DNA from: a virus | Reading direction: 5' to 3' (one strand) | Virus record (IMG/VR): IMGVR_UViG_3300008267_000589 | Location: 1-22,698 of that record | DNA length: 22,698 bases | Shown here: positions 1,769 to 11,233 of the stretch, piece after piece | Position numbering within the stretch: the stretch's first letter is position 1 | How the letters are laid out: each line of letters begins with the position of its first letter | The notes under the pieces: generated by a model | The model's database searches: none | Told to the model about the DNA's origin: nothing | The model's input: only the letters and a program-made list of their open reading frames with translations | Made by a program: the position numbers and the translations under genes

Positions 1769-3544
1769 ATGAGTAACGTATTAGAACGCTTGACAGAAGG
1801 TTCTGTCGAACGTAACATGTTAGTAGAAACACAAGCGGTAGTAGGTAAGTGGGAAAAGTCTGGTCTTTTGGAAGGTTTAAAGACAGAACGTGAACGCAGC
1901 ACAATGGCAGTATTATTAGAAAACCAAGCTAAGGAATTACTCCGCGAAGCCAACACAATGTCAAGCGGTGACGTACAAGGTTTCGCAGCAGTAGCTTTCC
2001 CTATCGTTCGTCGTGTATTTGCTGGCTTAATTGCTAACGATCTCGTAAGCGTACAACCAATGAGCTTACCATCCGGTCTTGTATTCTTCATGGATTTCAA
2101 GCGCGGTACAGATGTAGGTAATGCTGGTGATCGCGTATTCAAGAAAGGCGAAAGTTTCTTCGGTGATCGTCTTGGTGTAGAAATCACAGCCGGTGTTCGT
2201 TTAGATGGCGAACAAACTGAAAAGGGTTTCTATAACTTAGCAAATGGTTATAACACTTCACGTTATCACGATTATGTAGGCACCGGTAGCGTAGATACAT
2301 CTGCTCTTTCAAACGTAACAATTGCTACAGCAACCGATGCACAAAAAGCATTAGTACGCTGGGATCCAGACGTATTGGGTGATGCTGTTTATACCAAGGC
2401 AACTGTATTACGTGTACCTCTTTCTGCTCTTTCACAAAGCGCATTATTAGCTGAAAAAGATGTATACGCCGTATCTTTAGCACAAGCTGCTGCTGATGGC
2501 GGTTCTGGTGAATTAGATGTAACCGGTTCTTCAGCACTAGAAAACAGTGCTAAGTTGGTTCGTCGCTTAACCACAGTTGTAGAAGTAAGTGGTACCAAGT
2601 ATCTACAAATGGTATTAGTAGCACAAACTTCTGCTGCTCTTTCAGCTGTAGTAACTGGCTCACACGTAGCTTTGTCTTACCCAATCAAGGATAATCTCCA
2701 AACTGTTGGTACAAACGCTCTTGGCGCAATCAAGGGTGCAACACCTTGGACATTTGAAGGTTCTGCCGAAATTCCAGAAATCGAATTAAAGGTTGACTCC
2801 TTCTCAATTACAGCCCGTACACGTAAGTTGAAGGCTCAATGGACCCCAGAATTAGGTCAAGACTTAAATGCTTATCACAATTTGGATGCAGAAGTAGAAT
2901 TAACATCCATGTTGTCTGAACAAATCGGTCTTGATATCGATCAAGAAATCTTGAACGATCTTATCAAGGGTGCAACTGCTGGTGTTAAGTATTGGAGCCG
3001 CCGCCCCGGTAAGTTTGTAAATCGTGCAACTGGCGTTGATTTAGCTGGTGGCGTATTAGCAAACTATGCAGCACCACCAGATTTCACTGGTAACGTAAGC
3101 ATGTGGTACGAAACACTTGTTGAAACAATCAATGAAGTATCTGCACTCATTCACCGTAAGACATTGCGCGGCGGTGCAAACTTCCTTGTTTGCTCACCAG
3201 AAGTTGCAAACGTTCTTGAATTCACCAGCGGTTTCCGTGCATCCGTAACAAACGATGCTGAAAAGGGTACTGTAGGTGCTGTCAAGGTTGGCGATATGAA
3301 TAAGAAGTGGGACGTAATTGTTCACCCATACTTCCTCCGCAACGTAATTCTCGTTGGCCGTAAGGGTGGTAGCTTCTTAGAAAGCGGTTACGTATATGCA
3401 CCATACGTACCACTACAATCCACACCAACCATCTTCGATCCAAACAACTTTACACCACGTAAGGCTGTTTTGACCCGTTATGGTAAGGCAATGGTCCGTC
3501 CAGACATGTACGGCTTGGTTGTAGTAGAAGACTTAGAAGGTTAA
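1769..3544 (+). CDS. Major capsid protein (gp23-like)
   Basis: Forms the hexameric shell of the head. This 591-aa protein shows gp23 landmarks. Residues 70-98 (VRR, LIAN, VQPM) match the block that T4 gp23 has as MVRR...LIA...VQPM. The C-terminal block at about 545-591 has YAPYVPLQSTPTIFDP, then PRKAVLTRYGK and MYG. In the first 60 residues GLLEG aligns with T4 PLLEG. LLRE|A at residues 57-61 matches the prohead protease consensus (I/L)-X-E and lies where T4 gp23 is cut (E65|A66), so the mature protein probably starts near Ala61. Residues about 200-315 look like an extra surface domain (Ala/Ser/Val-rich), explaining the length above T4's 521. Lysine is almost always AAG here, unlike most neighbours, consistent with very high expression. 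Strong AAGGAG ribosome site; a terminator follows. Confidence 0.95.
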   Translation: MSNVLERLTEGSVERNMLVETQAVVGKWEKSGLLEGLKTERERSTMAVLLENQAKELLREANTMSSGDVQGFAAVAFPIVRRVFAGLIANDLVSVQPMSLPSGLVFFMDFKRGTDVGNAGDRVFKKGESFFGDRLGVEITAGVRLDGEQTEKGFYNLANGYNTSRYHDYVGTGSVDTSALSNVTIATATDAQKALVRWDPDVLGDAVYTKATVLRVPLSALSQSALLAEKDVYAVSLAQAAADGGSGELDVTGSSALENSAKLVRRLTTVVEVSGTKYLQMVLVAQTSAALSAVVTGSHVALSYPIKDNLQTVGTNALGAIKGATPWTFEGSAEIPEIELKVDSFSITARTRKLKAQWTPELGQDLNAYHNLDAEVELTSMLSEQIGLDIDQEILNDLIKGATAGVKYWSRRPGKFVNRATGVDLAGGVLANYAAPPDFTGNVSMWYETLVETINEVSALIHRKTLRGGANFLVCSPEVANVLEFTSGFRASVTNDAEKGTVGAVKVGDMNKKWDVIVHPYFLRNVILVGRKGGSFLESGYVYAPYVPLQSTPTIFDPNNFTPRKAVLTRYGKAMVRPDMYGLVVVEDLEG

Positions 3545-5444: not shown

Positions 5445-8252
5445 ATGTCAGTTTCCAAGTTTAGATTTGTATCCCCCGGTGTTTTTATTAACGAAATCGA
5501 CAATTCGCAGTTACCAAGATTGCCAAGTCAAATGGGGCCTGTTATTATCGGTCGTTCGCTTCGCGGACCAGCTATGCGTCCTGTTCAAATTCAAAGCTTT
5601 TCAGATTTCGTTGAAGTATTTGGTGAGCCTATTCCGGGTGGAAAAGGCGGTGATGTATGGAGAGATGGTAATAAAACCGCTCCTACATATGGCGCTTATG
5701 CAGCACAAGCGTACCTCCGTAATTCAAATCCTATAACTTTCGTTAGATTAGCTGGTTTTGAACATCCAGAAGCCGGTGGACAAGGAAAAGCTGGTTGGAA
5801 TACAAATTATGCTTACGGCTTATTTGTTGCGCCAATTGTAAGTAGCTCGGAAGATGTTTATAGTATGGATGCAACTGCTTCTTTGGCAGCAGTTCTTTAT
5901 TCTGACAGTCAATCTAACACTTTTGGTCTTACTGGTAAACCATTAAGTGGTTCTAATCAATTAGTTGGTCAATTTAATACTTGGATTCGCGCAAATGGCA
6001 CAGAATTAGAATTCAAAATTGTAACTGCAAATATAACTTCAAGCATTAATTTTGATGAAAATTCTAAGAAATATATTCGTAACATTTTAAATACAAATCC
6101 TATTTTAACCAACGATAATGTTACAGATAAGCCAGCCGGTTATTTCTTAGGTGAAACATTTAAAAGCTGGGTACAAAAGAATTCAACAACTTTATCTACA
6201 AAAGATTTTGCGGGCATTCTTGTACCATTAAAAGATTTAAGCAGTTCAGTTGGTTTCTCAGATTTTAATTATGGTGCCCGTGATGCTGAAACTGGTTGGA
6301 TTGTCTCTCAACACAGAGAGGACTCAGGATCATTTATTGCAGATCCAGAAACTGGCAAATATCCAGTAACTGAATTATTTAAGTTTGTATCTCTTTCAGA
6401 AGGTGAATGGAATAGCCAAAACTTAAAGATTTGTATTGAAGACATTAAAGAACCAACCAACATTTATGTTAAGTATGGTACTTTCACTGTTTCCATTCGT
6501 AAAATGGACGATACAGATTCTAATCCAGTATATGTTGAAAGATTTACTGGTCTTACTTTAGATCCTTCTTCAGAAAACTTTATTTCTAAAAAAATTGGTG
6601 ATAAGTATACTGTTTGGGATTATAATAAGAAAGCATACGTAGAATTTGGTTTACACGCCAATCAATCAAAATATGTTCGTGTTGTTGTAAATCAAGACGT
6701 AGAAAATGGTTTAACAGATGCATCGTTATTACCATATGGTTTCTATGGTCCTAAAGTATATACAATGGGCACATTAGAAAAAGAAAGTGGTTCTTATACT
6801 CTTTCTGAAGGCTTTATTGATGATGCTATTGCAGGTAATAATACATTTACTGCTAGTTTTGCATTACCACAACTTCCGTTGTTAGAAACAACCGATGATT
6901 CCACTGTGCCTTCTTTAAGTGCCGTATATTGGGGCTTAAAAACAAATGTAGGAAATACAAAGAAATTTAATAAAGATCTCTTTGATTATGTTAGACCACA
7001 AGCAAATGGTTATGCTGCTTCTAAATATCAATTCTTATTTACATTAGACGATGTAAGTGCATCTGTTACTACTGGTTCATATAGTGGCGGCACAGGTACC
7101 TATTGGAAAATAGACAATAACGTAGCAGCTACATGGAAAATGGGAAATCGTGCTTCTGGCGATTCTTTAACTTCATTAGGTTACACAGGAAGTGACGGCA
7201 GTTCTTTGATGTTAACAAGGTTTAATAAGTTTACAGTACCATTAGTAAACGGCTTCAACGGTGTTGATATCACTGAAAAAGATCCATTTAACAGAAGAAG
7301 ATTAGCCGAAGATCCCACAGAAACAACAAACTATGCTTATAATTCTATTAAGGTAGCAGTTGAAAGCATCTCAGATCCAGAAGTAGTTGAAATGAATCTT
7401 GCTTGCATGCCCGGTATTGACAATGAAGGTTTAACTTCTTTATTGATTGAAAAATGTGAATCACGCGGTGATGCGTTAGCAATTATTGATTTGAGCGGTG
7501 ATTATGTGCCAGAAGAAGGTAAAGCAACTGCCATTACCACAACTGCACAACGTAAGCCAGATGTAGATCGTACAGTATTGAACTTAAAGAATCGTGCATT
7601 AAACAGCAGCTATGGTTGTGCATACTTCCCTTGGGTATTAGCTAAGGACACATTAAACAACAATACTGTTTGGTTACCACCCTCTATTGCCGCTCTTGGT
7701 ACATTCTCAAGCGCACAACGTAGCACAGAATTATGGTTCGCTCCAGCAGGATTTAATCGTGGCGGCTTAAGCGATGGTGCAGCTGGCTTACCAGTTATTC
7801 AAACAGCATTACGTTTAAGTTCTAAAGATCGTGATGCGCTTTATGAAGCAAACATTAATCCAATCGCAACCTTCCCATCAGAAGGTATCGTAATCTTTGG
7901 TCAAAAGACATTACAAGTAACACCAAGTGCGCTTGACCGTATCAATGTTCGTCGCTTAATGATTTACGTTAAGAAAGAAATTAGCCGTATGGCTACCACA
8001 GTTCTCTTCGATCCAAATATCGACGTAACTTGGAAGCGCTTTACAAACTTGGCAGAACCTTTCTTGGGTAGCGTACAGTCACGTTTTGGCTTATCAGAAT
8101 ATAAGGTTGTATTAGATAATACAACAACTACTCCTGATTTAGTAGATCGTAACATTGTATATGCGAAGATTTTGTTAAAGCCAACCCGTGCTATTGAATT
8201 TATCGCAATCGACTTCGTTATCACAAATAGCGGTGCATCATTTAATGATTAA
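5445..8252 (+). CDS. Contractile tail sheath protein (gp18-like)
   Basis: Forms the contractile outer sheath of the tail. The N-terminus (residues 7-20, RFVSPGVFINEIDNS) is the standard sheath opening, which in T4-like sheaths donates a strand to the neighbouring subunit. The C-terminal domain (about 800-935) has the conserved sheath layout: INVRRLMIYVKKEI, then FDPN, TWKRF and a final PTRAIEFIAIDFVIT strand. Residues about 640-800 also fit the core sheath domain (for example LNNNTVWLPPSIAALG). At 935 aa it is far longer than T4 gp18 (659 aa); the excess lies between about 120 and 600, probably surface-exposed insertion domains. Codon use changes along the gene: lysines in the last third are mostly AAG, whereas the middle mixes AAA and AAG. 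ATG start with AAAGGAG. Confidence 0.95.
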   Translation: MSVSKFRFVSPGVFINEIDNSQLPRLPSQMGPVIIGRSLRGPAMRPVQIQSFSDFVEVFGEPIPGGKGGDVWRDGNKTAPTYGAYAAQAYLRNSNPITFVRLAGFEHPEAGGQGKAGWNTNYAYGLFVAPIVSSSEDVYSMDATASLAAVLYSDSQSNTFGLTGKPLSGSNQLVGQFNTWIRANGTELEFKIVTANITSSINFDENSKKYIRNILNTNPILTNDNVTDKPAGYFLGETFKSWVQKNSTTLSTKDFAGILVPLKDLSSSVGFSDFNYGARDAETGWIVSQHREDSGSFIADPETGKYPVTELFKFVSLSEGEWNSQNLKICIEDIKEPTNIYVKYGTFTVSIRKMDDTDSNPVYVERFTGLTLDPSSENFISKKIGDKYTVWDYNKKAYVEFGLHANQSKYVRVVVNQDVENGLTDASLLPYGFYGPKVYTMGTLEKESGSYTLSEGFIDDAIAGNNTFTASFALPQLPLLETTDDSTVPSLSAVYWGLKTNVGNTKKFNKDLFDYVRPQANGYAASKYQFLFTLDDVSASVTTGSYSGGTGTYWKIDNNVAATWKMGNRASGDSLTSLGYTGSDGSSLMLTRFNKFTVPLVNGFNGVDITEKDPFNRRRLAEDPTETTNYAYNSIKVAVESISDPEVVEMNLACMPGIDNEGLTSLLIEKCESRGDALAIIDLSGDYVPEEGKATAITTTAQRKPDVDRTVLNLKNRALNSSYGCAYFPWVLAKDTLNNNTVWLPPSIAALGTFSSAQRSTELWFAPAGFNRGGLSDGAAGLPVIQTALRLSSKDRDALYEANINPIATFPSEGIVIFGQKTLQVTPSALDRINVRRLMIYVKKEISRMATTVLFDPNIDVTWKRFTNLAEPFLGSVQSRFGLSEYKVVLDNTTTTPDLVDRNIVYAKILLKPTRAIEFIAIDFVITNSGASFND

Positions 8253-8298: not shown

Positions 8299-8841
8299 AT
8301 GTCATTTTGGAGCAATTTAAAAGCAGAACCATTAAGACAGCACAGATGGTATGTTACTTTTAACGGCAATAATCCGTTTTTAAATAACATGAGATATGCT
8401 GTAAAAAAAGTAAGTAAGCCATCAGCAAAAGTTGGTTCTATCCAGCACAAATATTTAAACCATTTCTTTAATTTTCCGGGTCGTCTTGAGTGGAATGATG
8501 TAACTATGACTTTTGCTGCTATTATTGCTTCTCAAGAATCTAATGGCGCAACTGCGTCACAATTAATTGATGCAATCAATAATTTATCTGGCTATCAGTT
8601 ACCAAAAAAACAAGAAGATCGTGAAACAATTGGTAAATTAAAAGCAGATGGCGCTATTGGTCGCGTGGATATTATACAAGTAGATCCTGACGGCGAAACA
8701 GTAGAAACTTGGTCACTATATCGTCCATTCTTTACAGAAATAAAATATGGCGATTTAGATTATTCTAATGAAGAAATTGTTGAAATAAGCTGCACAATCA
8801 AATACGATTGGGCTTCATTAAACGGCAATAGAACGCCATAA
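8299..8841 (+). CDS. Tail tube protein (gp19-like)
   Basis: Inner tail tube subunit through which DNA passes. This 180-aa protein follows the sheath directly, as gp19 follows gp18 in T4, and its length is close to that of T4 gp19 (163 aa). The N-terminal block FWSNLKAEPLRQHRWYVTF and the central LNHFFNFPGRLEWNDVTMTF are the typical tube-fold strands; the C-terminal IVEISCTIKYDWASLN closes the barrel. The next gene encodes a second protein with the same pattern, so the two are paralogues. Strong TTAGGAG site 12 bases before the ATG. A TATAAT-like stretch upstream (about 8270) lacks a good -35 partner. Confidence 0.92.
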   Translation: MSFWSNLKAEPLRQHRWYVTFNGNNPFLNNMRYAVKKVSKPSAKVGSIQHKYLNHFFNFPGRLEWNDVTMTFAAIIASQESNGATASQLIDAINNLSGYQLPKKQEDRETIGKLKADGAIGRVDIIQVDPDGETVETWSLYRPFFTEIKYGDLDYSNEEIVEISCTIKYDWASLNGNRTP

Positions 8842-8856
8842 TATTTGTGAGGAACA

Positions 8857-10119
8857 ATGGCATTTTGGTCAGACGATAGAACTCCAGAGCCTTTACGTTC
8901 TCATAGATGGTTTATTAGATTTACCAAAGGCGGTATGGAAAAGTTCACTTATGCTCTAAAAGAGTGTAAGAAGCCAGAATATGAAGTTACCGTTACTGAA
9001 CATCGTAGGCTTAATCATTATATTAAGCTTCCCGGTTTAGTTAAATGGAAACCAATAACTGTTAAATTTGCCTCTGTACGAGATACAAGCGATTTAGCTT
9101 CAAAAACTATTCTTGATAGACTGTTAACTGGTGGATATACAATTCCAGCAGACGGTGATTTTTTAAATTCTGCTGTTTCTAAAGATAAAATGATAGAAGC
9201 AGTTGGAAATGATTTAGAAATTATTCAATTAGATCCAGATGGAAAAGAAATAGAAATTTGGAAGTTACATAATCCATTAATCACAAGTACTAACTTTGGC
9301 TCTTTAAGCTATGAAAGCGAAGATATAGTTAATATTGAATGTACAATTAATTATGATTGGGCTACATTAAATTCAAAAGATATTGTTCAGGACGTTAACG
9401 AAGTTAGCACTCTTATAGCTTCTGGAAGTATAAAAGGCTATGGAGATAAACCAGAAGATACAAATATAAAATTTGATGGAACAGATTCAACAAAGTTAAT
9501 TAAAAATGAATTTAGTGATCCAAAAAAGAAAAGTAATATTTCTACTAAAATTAATGTTCCAATCGAAAATAAATCTAATAAATTAAAAAGACGTTTTACG
9601 CAAAGAGATTTAGAAAATAGAGATATTTTTACTACATTATTAAATTTTAATGATTTTCTTGTTAGATCTCAACAAGAAATCTTGGCTGCTAAAGAGGCAG
9701 AAGAAATAAGAAGAGCGTCTATAACCGATGAACAAAGATTATTTCAAGCAGAAGCAGAAGAAAGAATACGTGAATTGGAAGAAGGTTTAGCACAAAGAAC
9801 TGCCCTAGAGCGTGAACGTGCAGCAGCAGCATTAAAAAAAGAACAAGATGCTCAACAAGCAACAAGAGCCGAAGCTGATCGTCAACAAAAAGAAAGAGAA
9901 ATTGCTGAAAGAGAGCGCTTAAAAAATGAACAAGTTATATTAGATGCCGAAGCAGAAGCGGCAAGACAAGATGCTGCTCGTCGTAATGCTCAAGCTCTTT
10001 TAGACGAACAAAATAGAAATGCTGCTCAACAACAACAAAAGAAAGACGAACAACTTAATAAAACTTTAACAGAAAATGCAAATAGAGTTTTTGGTTCGTT
10101 GCCAGATCAAGAAGATTAA
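8857..10119 (+). CDS. Tail tube paralogue fused to a long coiled coil
   Basis: Residues 1-174 repeat the fold pattern of the preceding tube protein: FWSDDRTPEPLRSHRWFIRF, then LNHYIKLPGLVKWKPITVKF, and IVNIECTINYDWATLN at the end. A polar linker (about 175-250) and a basic stretch (KLKRRF, about 242-247) follow. Residues about 265-405 are almost purely Glu, Lys, Arg, Gln and Ala with heptad-like spacing, so probably one long coiled coil. The gene starts 15 bases after the tube gene with GAGGAA. Likely a specialised tube ring at one end of the tube (tube initiator, terminator or an adaptor), with the coiled coil either inside the lumen or reaching a partner such as the tape measure. The exact role is inference; the tube relationship is directly visible. 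Confidence 0.75.
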   Translation: MAFWSDDRTPEPLRSHRWFIRFTKGGMEKFTYALKECKKPEYEVTVTEHRRLNHYIKLPGLVKWKPITVKFASVRDTSDLASKTILDRLLTGGYTIPADGDFLNSAVSKDKMIEAVGNDLEIIQLDPDGKEIEIWKLHNPLITSTNFGSLSYESEDIVNIECTINYDWATLNSKDIVQDVNEVSTLIASGSIKGYGDKPEDTNIKFDGTDSTKLIKNEFSDPKKKSNISTKINVPIENKSNKLKRRFTQRDLENRDIFTTLLNFNDFLVRSQQEILAAKEAEEIRRASITDEQRLFQAEAEERIRELEEGLAQRTALERERAAAALKKEQDAQQATRAEADRQQKEREIAERERLKNEQVILDAEAEAARQDAARRNAQALLDEQNRNAAQQQQKKDEQLNKTLTENANRVFGSLPDQED

Positions 10120-10185: not shown

Positions 10186-11064
10186 ATGCGAAACAATGAA
10201 GAACGTCTAGGCGCACAAATGCAACGCCAAGATGCAGTACCTTTACCACAACAATTATCTCCACAGGCAGTACCTTTGCCAAATACAACAGCAGCGCCTC
10301 TTAACTTTATCACACCAACAGAATTTGTCCCTCTTCCATCAAAAGGTAAGTTTTATCCTGAACATCACCCATTACATGGTAAAGATGTCATTGAAGTAAA
10401 ACAAATGACCGCAAAAGAAGAAGATATTCTTACATCACGCAGCCTATTAAAAAAGGGGGTGGCATTAGATAGGCTTATTCAATCTTTGATTGTAGATCAA
10501 AGCTTAAATCCCGATACATTAACAATAGAAGATCGTAGTGCTATTATTGTAGCCGCTCGTATTTCAGCATATGGTCCAGAATATACTACAAGCGTTACAT
10601 GTCCTAATTGCGGAGAAAAAAATAAGTCTACATTTGATTTGTCAGAAAAACTTGAACCAGAAGAAAAAGAAGAAAAACAATTATTACCTGTAGACAGTAA
10701 TGGACATTTTACTGTTCAACTTCCATCAACTAAATGGACAGTTGTTTGCAGAGTGTTAAATGGTTATGATGAAAAAGAATTAGCTAAGACTGAAACTACA
10801 AAAAAGAAAAATGACTTAGTTGGTGATTCTTTATTGCTACAACAATTAAAATCTATGGTTGTTTCTGTAGAAAATGTAACAGACAAAGCTATGATTGAAC
10901 GTGCATTAAGCGTGCTTCCAGCGGCTGATTCAAGGTTTTTACGAAAAACATATAGTGATAATGTTACAGGCGTAGATATGCGCCACTCATTTAATTGTAA
11001 ATCATGTGATAACTCAGCGGAGTTGGAGGTGCCGCTGACGGCAGACTTTTTTTGGTTTAAGTAA
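10186..11064 (+). CDS. Baseplate hub / tail assembly protein (T4 gp26-like), zero-frame product
   Basis: Resembles the T4-like gp26 hub assembly family. Residues 46-57 (EFVPLPSKGKFY) and 68-90 (V-I-E-V-K-Q-M-T, then EEDILTSRSLLKKG) are the family's signature. They are followed by a helix (about 91-125) and an RISAYGPEY block. There are two CxxC pairs, C139/C142 (CPNC) and C271/C274 (CKSC), likely forming one zinc site across the domain; the segment between them is acidic then beta-rich. In zero frame it ends ...ADFFWFK (292 aa). T4 gp26 is 208 aa and acts in hub assembly. The gene lies just before the tape measure, the place where many tail phages carry an assembly chaperone pair made by frameshifting, and this one shows the same design (see next entries). 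The ATG has no strong Shine-Dalgarno; AGGT lies 6 bases before it. Confidence 0.75.
   Translation: MRNNEERLGAQMQRQDAVPLPQQLSPQAVPLPNTTAAPLNFITPTEFVPLPSKGKFYPEHHPLHGKDVIEVKQMTAKEEDILTSRSLLKKGVALDRLIQSLIVDQSLNPDTLTIEDRSAIIVAARISAYGPEYTTSVTCPNCGEKNKSTFDLSEKLEPEEKEEKQLLPVDSNGHFTVQLPSTKWTVVCRVLNGYDEKELAKTETTKKKNDLVGDSLLLQQLKSMVVSVENVTDKAMIERALSVLPAADSRFLRKTYSDNVTGVDMRHSFNCKSCDNSAELEVPLTADFFWFK
11014..11055 (+). promoter_or_regulatory. Putative programmed frameshift site with upstream hairpin
   Basis: Seven consecutive T residues (11047-11053), read in zero frame as GAC TTT TTT TGG, would let a tRNA-Phe in the P site slip +1 from TTT (11050-11052) to TTT (11051-11053) and then read GGT. The frame entered is open for 59 codons. 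Just upstream, TCAGCGG (11014-11020) pairs perfectly with CCGCTGA (11032-11038), and the loop carries a GGAGGT Shine-Dalgarno-like sequence (11025-11030). Eight successive codons here (11017-11040) end in G, unlike the rest of this AT-rich gene, suggesting selection on the RNA itself. A -2 shift would reach the same frame. Confidence 0.65.
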
Positions 11065-11233
11065 TGAATATCAACAAAACATCTACGAAACTTTTTTCTA
11101 TCTAAAGTATTATGGTGGATTCTCAATATTTGAAAGTTATAATCTGCCAGTTGCATTAAGAAAATGGTTTGTAGAAAAATTGGTTGATCATCTAAAAGAA
11201 GAAAGCGAAGCAGTGAAAAGAGCTAGTAAGTAA
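11054..11233 (+). CDS. Frameshift-expressed C-terminal extension of the gp26-like protein
   Basis: A 59-codon segment from GLSNEYQQNIYE to the stop at 11231-11233, in the +1 frame relative to the gp26-like gene. It has strongly protein-like composition: FFYLKYYGGFSIFESYNL, then LPVALRKWFVEKLVDHLKEE, probably two or three helices. The open frame begins only at 11039, inside the gp26-like gene, and contains no ATG; the first GTG or TTG codons come far into the conserved part. Independent translation is therefore unlikely. A +1 slip at the T run would give a fusion of about 348 aa. By analogy with the frameshifted G/GT-type tail assembly chaperones encoded upstream of tape measures, this extension may bind the tape measure protein. 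The analogy is inference; the reading-frame geometry is observed. Confidence 0.65.
   Translation, partial: GLSNEYQQNIYETFFYLKYYGGFSIFESYNLPVALRKWFVEKLVDHLKEESEAVKRASK

Follow-up and report, generated by a model that had tools for sequence, protein, structure and literature searches.

A conserved +1 overlap at the end of a gp26-like gene points to a frameshifted long form of a predicted phage tail assembly chaperone

How could a ribosome enter an open reading frame that offers it no start codon? The question is raised by IMG/VR virus record IMGVR_UViG_3300008267_000589, of which the whole stretch analysed here (positions 1 to 22,698; 22,698 nucleotides) is called the window. A gp26-like gene ends there with ...GCA GAC TTT TTT TGG TTT AAG TAA (stop at 11062-11064), and across this end the +1 frame is open and remains so well past the stop. 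An earlier note had described the end of the gene at 11064, the open +1 frame from 11039 to 11233, its lack of an ATG or usable early start and a seven-T run (11047-11053) inside the overlap; all of this was confirmed from the sequence, and no GTG or TTG in the +1 frame is usable as a start either. The chance that 59 codons of one given frame stay open is approximately 0.007 (composition-matched Markov model, window alone), which is evidence for a real second frame that is suggestive only. The features of the locus are listed in Table 1.

Table 1. Features of the gp26-like locus, with positions in the window
Feature	Position	Strand	Basis or remark
gp26-like 0-frame ORF, 292 aa; predicted tail assembly chaperone, short form (TAC-N)	10186..11064	+	PF12322 and phrog_150 matches; model
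+1-frame ORF	11039-11233	+	64 codons including RQTFF; 59 codons from GGT at 11054
+1-frame extension, 59 aa plus stop, GLSNEYQQNIYETFFYLKYYGGFSIFESYNLPVALRKWFVEKLVDHLKEESEAVKRASK; predicted TAC-C-type domain	11054..11233	+	conservation; three-helix model; weak gp51 C-terminus profile matches
Predicted frameshift product, 348 aa, long form (TAC-NC)	10186..11233 (10186-11052 joined to 11054-11230)	+	prediction
Shift site TTT TTT TGG	11047..11055	+	slipping-codon conservation; site variants
GAC codon preceding the Phe pair	11044..11046	+	no T in third position ahead of TTT TTT
GGAGGT, Shine-Dalgarno-like motif, putative role	11025..11030	+	19 nt upstream of the slipping UUU; constraint in clade A
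Likely tail tape measure gene, 959 aa	11314..14193	+	position and length

Two tail tube genes, recognized by profile, and a sheath gene lie upstream of the gp26-like ORF. Downstream, 80 nt past the end of the +1 ORF, is an ORF of 959 aa that has no Pfam or PHROG match and only weak similarity to an annotated tape measure protein of the immuto phages (22%, E 0.011). This ORF is probably the tail tape measure gene, an assignment made by size and position, and the gene following the overlap is annotated as such in the immuto and LIS04 phages. The gp26-like ORF is thus placed between the tail tube genes and the ORF taken for the tape measure by its length and position.

The proposal that related phages be compared for the overlap, the T run and the second frame was followed up with a scan of IMG/VR, which returned 80 relatives (44-72% identity). 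All three were kept in all close relatives. The site is visible in 79 sequences, the window included, and among their +1 extensions, which measure 56-91 aa, 54 are distinct. The site reads GAC TTT TTT TGG in 68, GAC TTC TTT TGG in seven and GAA or GAG followed by TTT TTT TGG in four. Fifty codons past the site, the +1 frame is still open in every distinct sequence of clade A (57/57) and of clade B (65/65), compared with 2/57 and 0/57 (clade A) and 0/65 and 3/65 (clade B) for the other two frames. This conservation settles the reality of the second frame, for which the open-frame chance was suggestive only. Many close relatives, like the window, have no +1-frame start codon ahead of the conserved residues, and a stop immediately 5' of the site often interrupts this frame.

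The set was widened with further scans and with annotated phages, which brought in divergent loci with identities down to about 25%. Of 108 such loci, an extension profile detected the +1-frame extension in 101, and the same arrangement is found in Microcystis phage Mel-JY01, the Flavobacterium immuto phages, Bacillus phage SP-15, Listeria phage LIS04 and Streptococcus phage SagM-GXN1, with weak profile matches (13-18 bits) in SP-15, LIS04 and SagM. The +1 overlap is also present in all eight usable contigs from bacterial or archaeal MAG bins, which are mostly of Flavobacteriales or other Bacteroidota. Judged from these sequences, the +1 overlap is the predominant mode among the relatives examined, which number well over a hundred.

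Selection at the nucleotide level was assessed in clade A with 29 disjoint sequence pairs. Synonymous changes are most strongly depleted, for the whole gene, in the 11 codons through TGG (46 vs 112 expected, z -8.9). In the extension they are at a normal level (551 vs 573 expected), so it behaves as a coding frame should, and the earlier description of the segment as protein-like can be upheld: it is conserved in the +1 frame and evolves as coding sequence. Independently, clade B shows constraint around the Phe pair (z -3.9), the two Phe codons having no synonymous changes where 8.4 and 8.2 were expected. The slipping Phe codon is TTT in 137 of 137 sequences, against 101 expected from each gene's own usage, and the codon before TTT TTT ends in T in 0 of 112 (70.9 expected), compared with 4 of 15 before TTC TTT; these counts come from related sequences and are hence not independent events. 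The avoidance of T can be read in more than one way: it removes the -1 heptamer T TTT TTT or, alternatively, caps the run at seven T. A -1 shift on a heptamer of the form X XXY YYZ was considered for the window and rejected, the sequence there being C TTT TTT T and the extension lying in the +1 frame.

Other possible signals were sought around the site. GGAGGT is present in 53 of 57 clade A sequences, and its Glu codon GAG has no synonymous changes vs eight expected; in clade B it occurs in 1 of 65, and its candidacy as a universal stimulator was rejected on that count. No conserved RNA structure was found around the site (RNAalifold -0.7 kcal/mol, no compensatory pair). The predicted A-site codon is UGG, a sense codon that is not strictly conserved: TAC takes its place in TTT TTT TAC at L185 (near 2265) and L187 (near the gp26 stop).

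Based on these results, it is very probable that one gene encodes a short and a long tail assembly chaperone by means of a +1 frameshift. The majority of ribosomes would terminate at 11062-11064 and yield the 292-aa short form. In a minority, peptidyl-tRNA-Phe would sit on UUU 11050-11052 with UGG waiting in the A site, slip +1 onto the overlapping UUU 11051-11053 and resume decoding at GGU 11054. The slipped ribosomes would produce 289 + 59 = 348 aa, a long form that ends in the 59-aa domain modelled as three helices. If the pair works as lambda G and GT do, the tape measure protein would be coated by the short form, and tail tube subunits would be recruited through the extension of the long form. 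The occurrence of the shift, its rate and the chaperone role are all three what we infer, for the shift step from conservation and constraint.

The variants of the site bear on how the two frames are joined. TTC TTT TGG (15 distinct sites), TTT CTT TGG and TTC TTT CGT keep the same frame relation, allow no -2 re-pairing and contain no long T run; for these reasons neither a -2 slip nor transcriptional slippage can explain the loci in general. Nearly all of the tabulated variants let the P-site Phe tRNA (or Leu tRNA on CUU) re-pair at +1, the next base being U or C; only the -1-type record CM1 and the separate-ORF locus L110 do not. As far as sequence can tell, nearly all loci share just one possible mechanism, a +1 slip of tRNA-Phe on UUU-U/C.

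Slippage of RNA polymerase on the seven-T run, which would give a fraction of mRNA one base shorter that encodes the fusion in frame, is very unlikely. Most loci do have the seven-T run, but only four consecutive T occur in those with TTC TTT TGG and six in those with CTT TTT TGG, the frame relation being unchanged, and what is conserved is the Phe codon UUU followed by U or C, not the length of the run. A -2 ribosomal slip on the T run, the other direction that the earlier note had allowed, has been reported for Mu-type tail genes. On TTT TTT TGG it would lead to the same frame with UUU re-pairing and give 349 aa, but at variant sites it would set the Phe or Leu anticodon against UCU or some other codon that does not match, while the frame stays the same, which makes such a slip hardly credible. 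Of the two directions only +1, with its product of 348 aa, was upheld, as the TTC TTT TGG relatives cannot re-pair at -2.

The extension could instead be translated on its own as a small protein, after re-initiation or from an internal start. In three distant relatives (L084, L104 and L110) it begins with an ATG that overlaps or closely follows the stop, and the +1 ORF is a gene of its own in the Mel-JY01 annotation. For the window such separate translation is scarcely to be expected, however, since both the window and many of its close relatives lack a +1-frame start preceding the conserved residues, a stop just 5' of the site often interrupts the frame, and the conserved shift codons would be left unexplained. 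Such a gene with its own ATG is the arrangement that the earlier note had named as speaking against a shift; it does occur, in those three distant relatives alone. That a sequencing error (at a homopolymer run) or gene decay broke a formerly fused gene is extremely improbable, as the same break is found in more than 130 distinct sequences from many assemblies, sequenced phage genomes included, with coding constraint on both sides, and no uninterrupted in-frame fusion was seen in close relatives.

The gp26-like ORF matches PF12322 (T4_baseplate; E 9.7e-14, 52 bits vs a curated cut-off of 24.5) and phrog_150 (baseplate hub; E 5e-16); it contains a zinc-ribbon-like CPNC motif and is not related to lambda G by sequence. 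Its 292-aa model (pLDDT 87) gave modest best structural matches, the top two of 379 chains, to 3FGX (Z 5.2) and HK97 gp13 (2OB9, Z 4.5), the remaining, unrelated chains having Z scores of 2.8 and below. Both 3FGX and 2OB9 have been termed tail assembly chaperones (PMC9603447), and the models thus suggest a modest but pointed fold kinship of the N-terminal part with these proteins. The extension is modelled as three helices (pLDDT 90.8) for which the PDB held no credible match; in BFVD, matches had E > 0.2 only, among them a baseplate protein of Klebsiella phage KPV15 and a 246-aa protein of a Campylobacter phage. A tblastn search of phage records with a marine extension gave no match. Of 49 extensions, 21 have a weak match to DUF6760 (PF20546; best E 6e-4), that of the window not being among them; many extensions, such as L095:2225-2425 and L042:3851-4105, weakly resemble this family and phrog_20255, both of small proteins.

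The arrangement resembles that of lambda gpG/gpGT and other TAC-N/TAC-NC pairs, in which a short and a long form likewise come from one gene through a shift near its 3' end. The lambda gene likewise lies between tail tube and tape measure genes, and the N-terminal model here bears a modest resemblance to the HK97 chaperone fold. The earlier suggestion of a G/GT chaperone design ahead of the tape measure is supported by the conserved overlap, the constrained slippery site and the gene position. In lambda and most other phages, however, the shift is -1 on a heptamer, whereas +1 on UUU-U is predicted for the window. Programmed +1 shifting is uncommon, and most cases involve a stop codon. In the RF2 gene (prfB), the +1 frameshift takes place on CUU UGA with a close Shine-Dalgarno sequence at a spacing of 3 nt. 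There too the tRNA in the P site moves forward by one base to a codon overlapping the first, and the immuto phages even have CUU U; in contrast to RF2, the window has no in-frame stop at the shift site, and its motif is 19 nt away and clade-specific.

A 2022 study of T4-like chaperones by Vladimirov reportedly proposes, in its title, a mechanism other than frameshifting. Another poly-T motif is found in Vandenendeviridae phage Adele, a myophage in which a chaperone extension likewise precedes the tape measure gene; there, however, the extension is in the -1 frame and the motif is GTTTTT (PMC12846349). That paper cites Vladimirov 2022 for poly-T signals, and part of the present finding may already be published. 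Ribosomal +1 frameshifts are on record for phage tail genes, namely the tail chaperone of the myovirus HSTV-2 and genes of Listeria phages PSA, A118 and A500 (Atkins review, PMC5009743). HSTV-2 is an archaeal virus that has in common with the window a +1 frameshift in a tail gene, predicted in the latter; in PSA, A118 and A500, structural genes shift on CCC (in the tail gene tsh, CCC_UGA before the stop), as opposed to Phe UUU here (PMC5009743). In the literature examined on +1 shifts in phage tails, no description of a Phe UUU +1 site before a sense codon was found. As +1 frameshifting in phage tail genes is already known, the UUU-U/C site would be a variant of it. The site is kept over a large set of mostly uncultured contractile-tailed phages, which provides many natural variants of one recoding signal, and the predicted long chaperone form has been overlooked in annotated genomes such as those of immuto, SP-15, LIS04, SagM-GXN1 and Mel-JY01.

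T4 gp26 and gp51 both belong to PF12322 and are encoded by separate genes across the Straboviridae. The two align over 191 residues (probability 99.3), gp51 continuing for about 45 further residues, and it is with these that the extension aligns weakly. The extension of one relative (L156) matches phrog_634 with E 0.0096 at profile positions 71-119 of 121, and a comparison of the extension profile with the gp51 C-terminus was weak (hhalign P 0.0085, probability only 5%). Direct BLAST of the gp26-like protein against T4 gp51 was not significant, nor was the first extension profile, so the likeness rests on arguments of profile position and length; an alignment including T4 gp26 and gp51 was too divergent for a genome scan. 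With these data, T4 looks to encode as genes 26 and 51 what corresponds to the short/long pair, in two genes where the window has one gene and a predicted frameshift. The earlier note had thought that a +1 or -2 version in a T4-like gp26 gene would be a notable variant; the +1 version is supported, though as the predominant form among relatives and not an isolated one, while T4 itself splits genes 26 and 51.

Two further routes were seen in relatives. In L084, L104 and L110 the extension is a separate ORF whose ATG overlaps or just follows the gp26 stop (TAATG, TAGAAATG, TAGAAATCATG). In L200 (PA5oct, near 2810), L198 (Stenotrophomonas phage CM1, near 2768), L201/L202 (near 2325) and L196 (near 2160), reading by eye revealed T_TTT_TTC or T_TTT_TTT ahead of the gp26 stop, with an extension-like segment in the -1 frame, and in these sequences the direction of the shift has apparently switched at the same Phe-Phe site. 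The family appears to reach one protein architecture in four ways (+1 shift, -1 shift, separate ORF and duplicated genes), and this opens the origin of T4 genes 26 and 51 to testing. Tentatively, and with the balance leaning somewhat against it, UUU-U/C with the A site occupied by a sense codon, and lacking any stop, nearby Shine-Dalgarno sequence or 3' structure, might form a distinct and deeply conserved class of +1 signal that was also the ancestral route to gp26/gp51-type pairs, the -1 shifts, the separate ORF and the T4 duplication having come later.

Other structural genes of the window have unusual proportions. The tail tube genes (gp19-like) are in tandem at 8299-8841 and 8857-10119, and the second (420 aa) has a long extra C-terminal part. 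The tail sheath protein (5445-8252) is very long at 935 aa; the strongest stretch of its best sheath profile covers residues 391-933 only, and its N-terminal part looks like an addition. Similarly, the best-matching stretch of the 591-aa major head protein (phrog_138, 1769-3544) starts at residue 325, which suggests a long N-terminal region.
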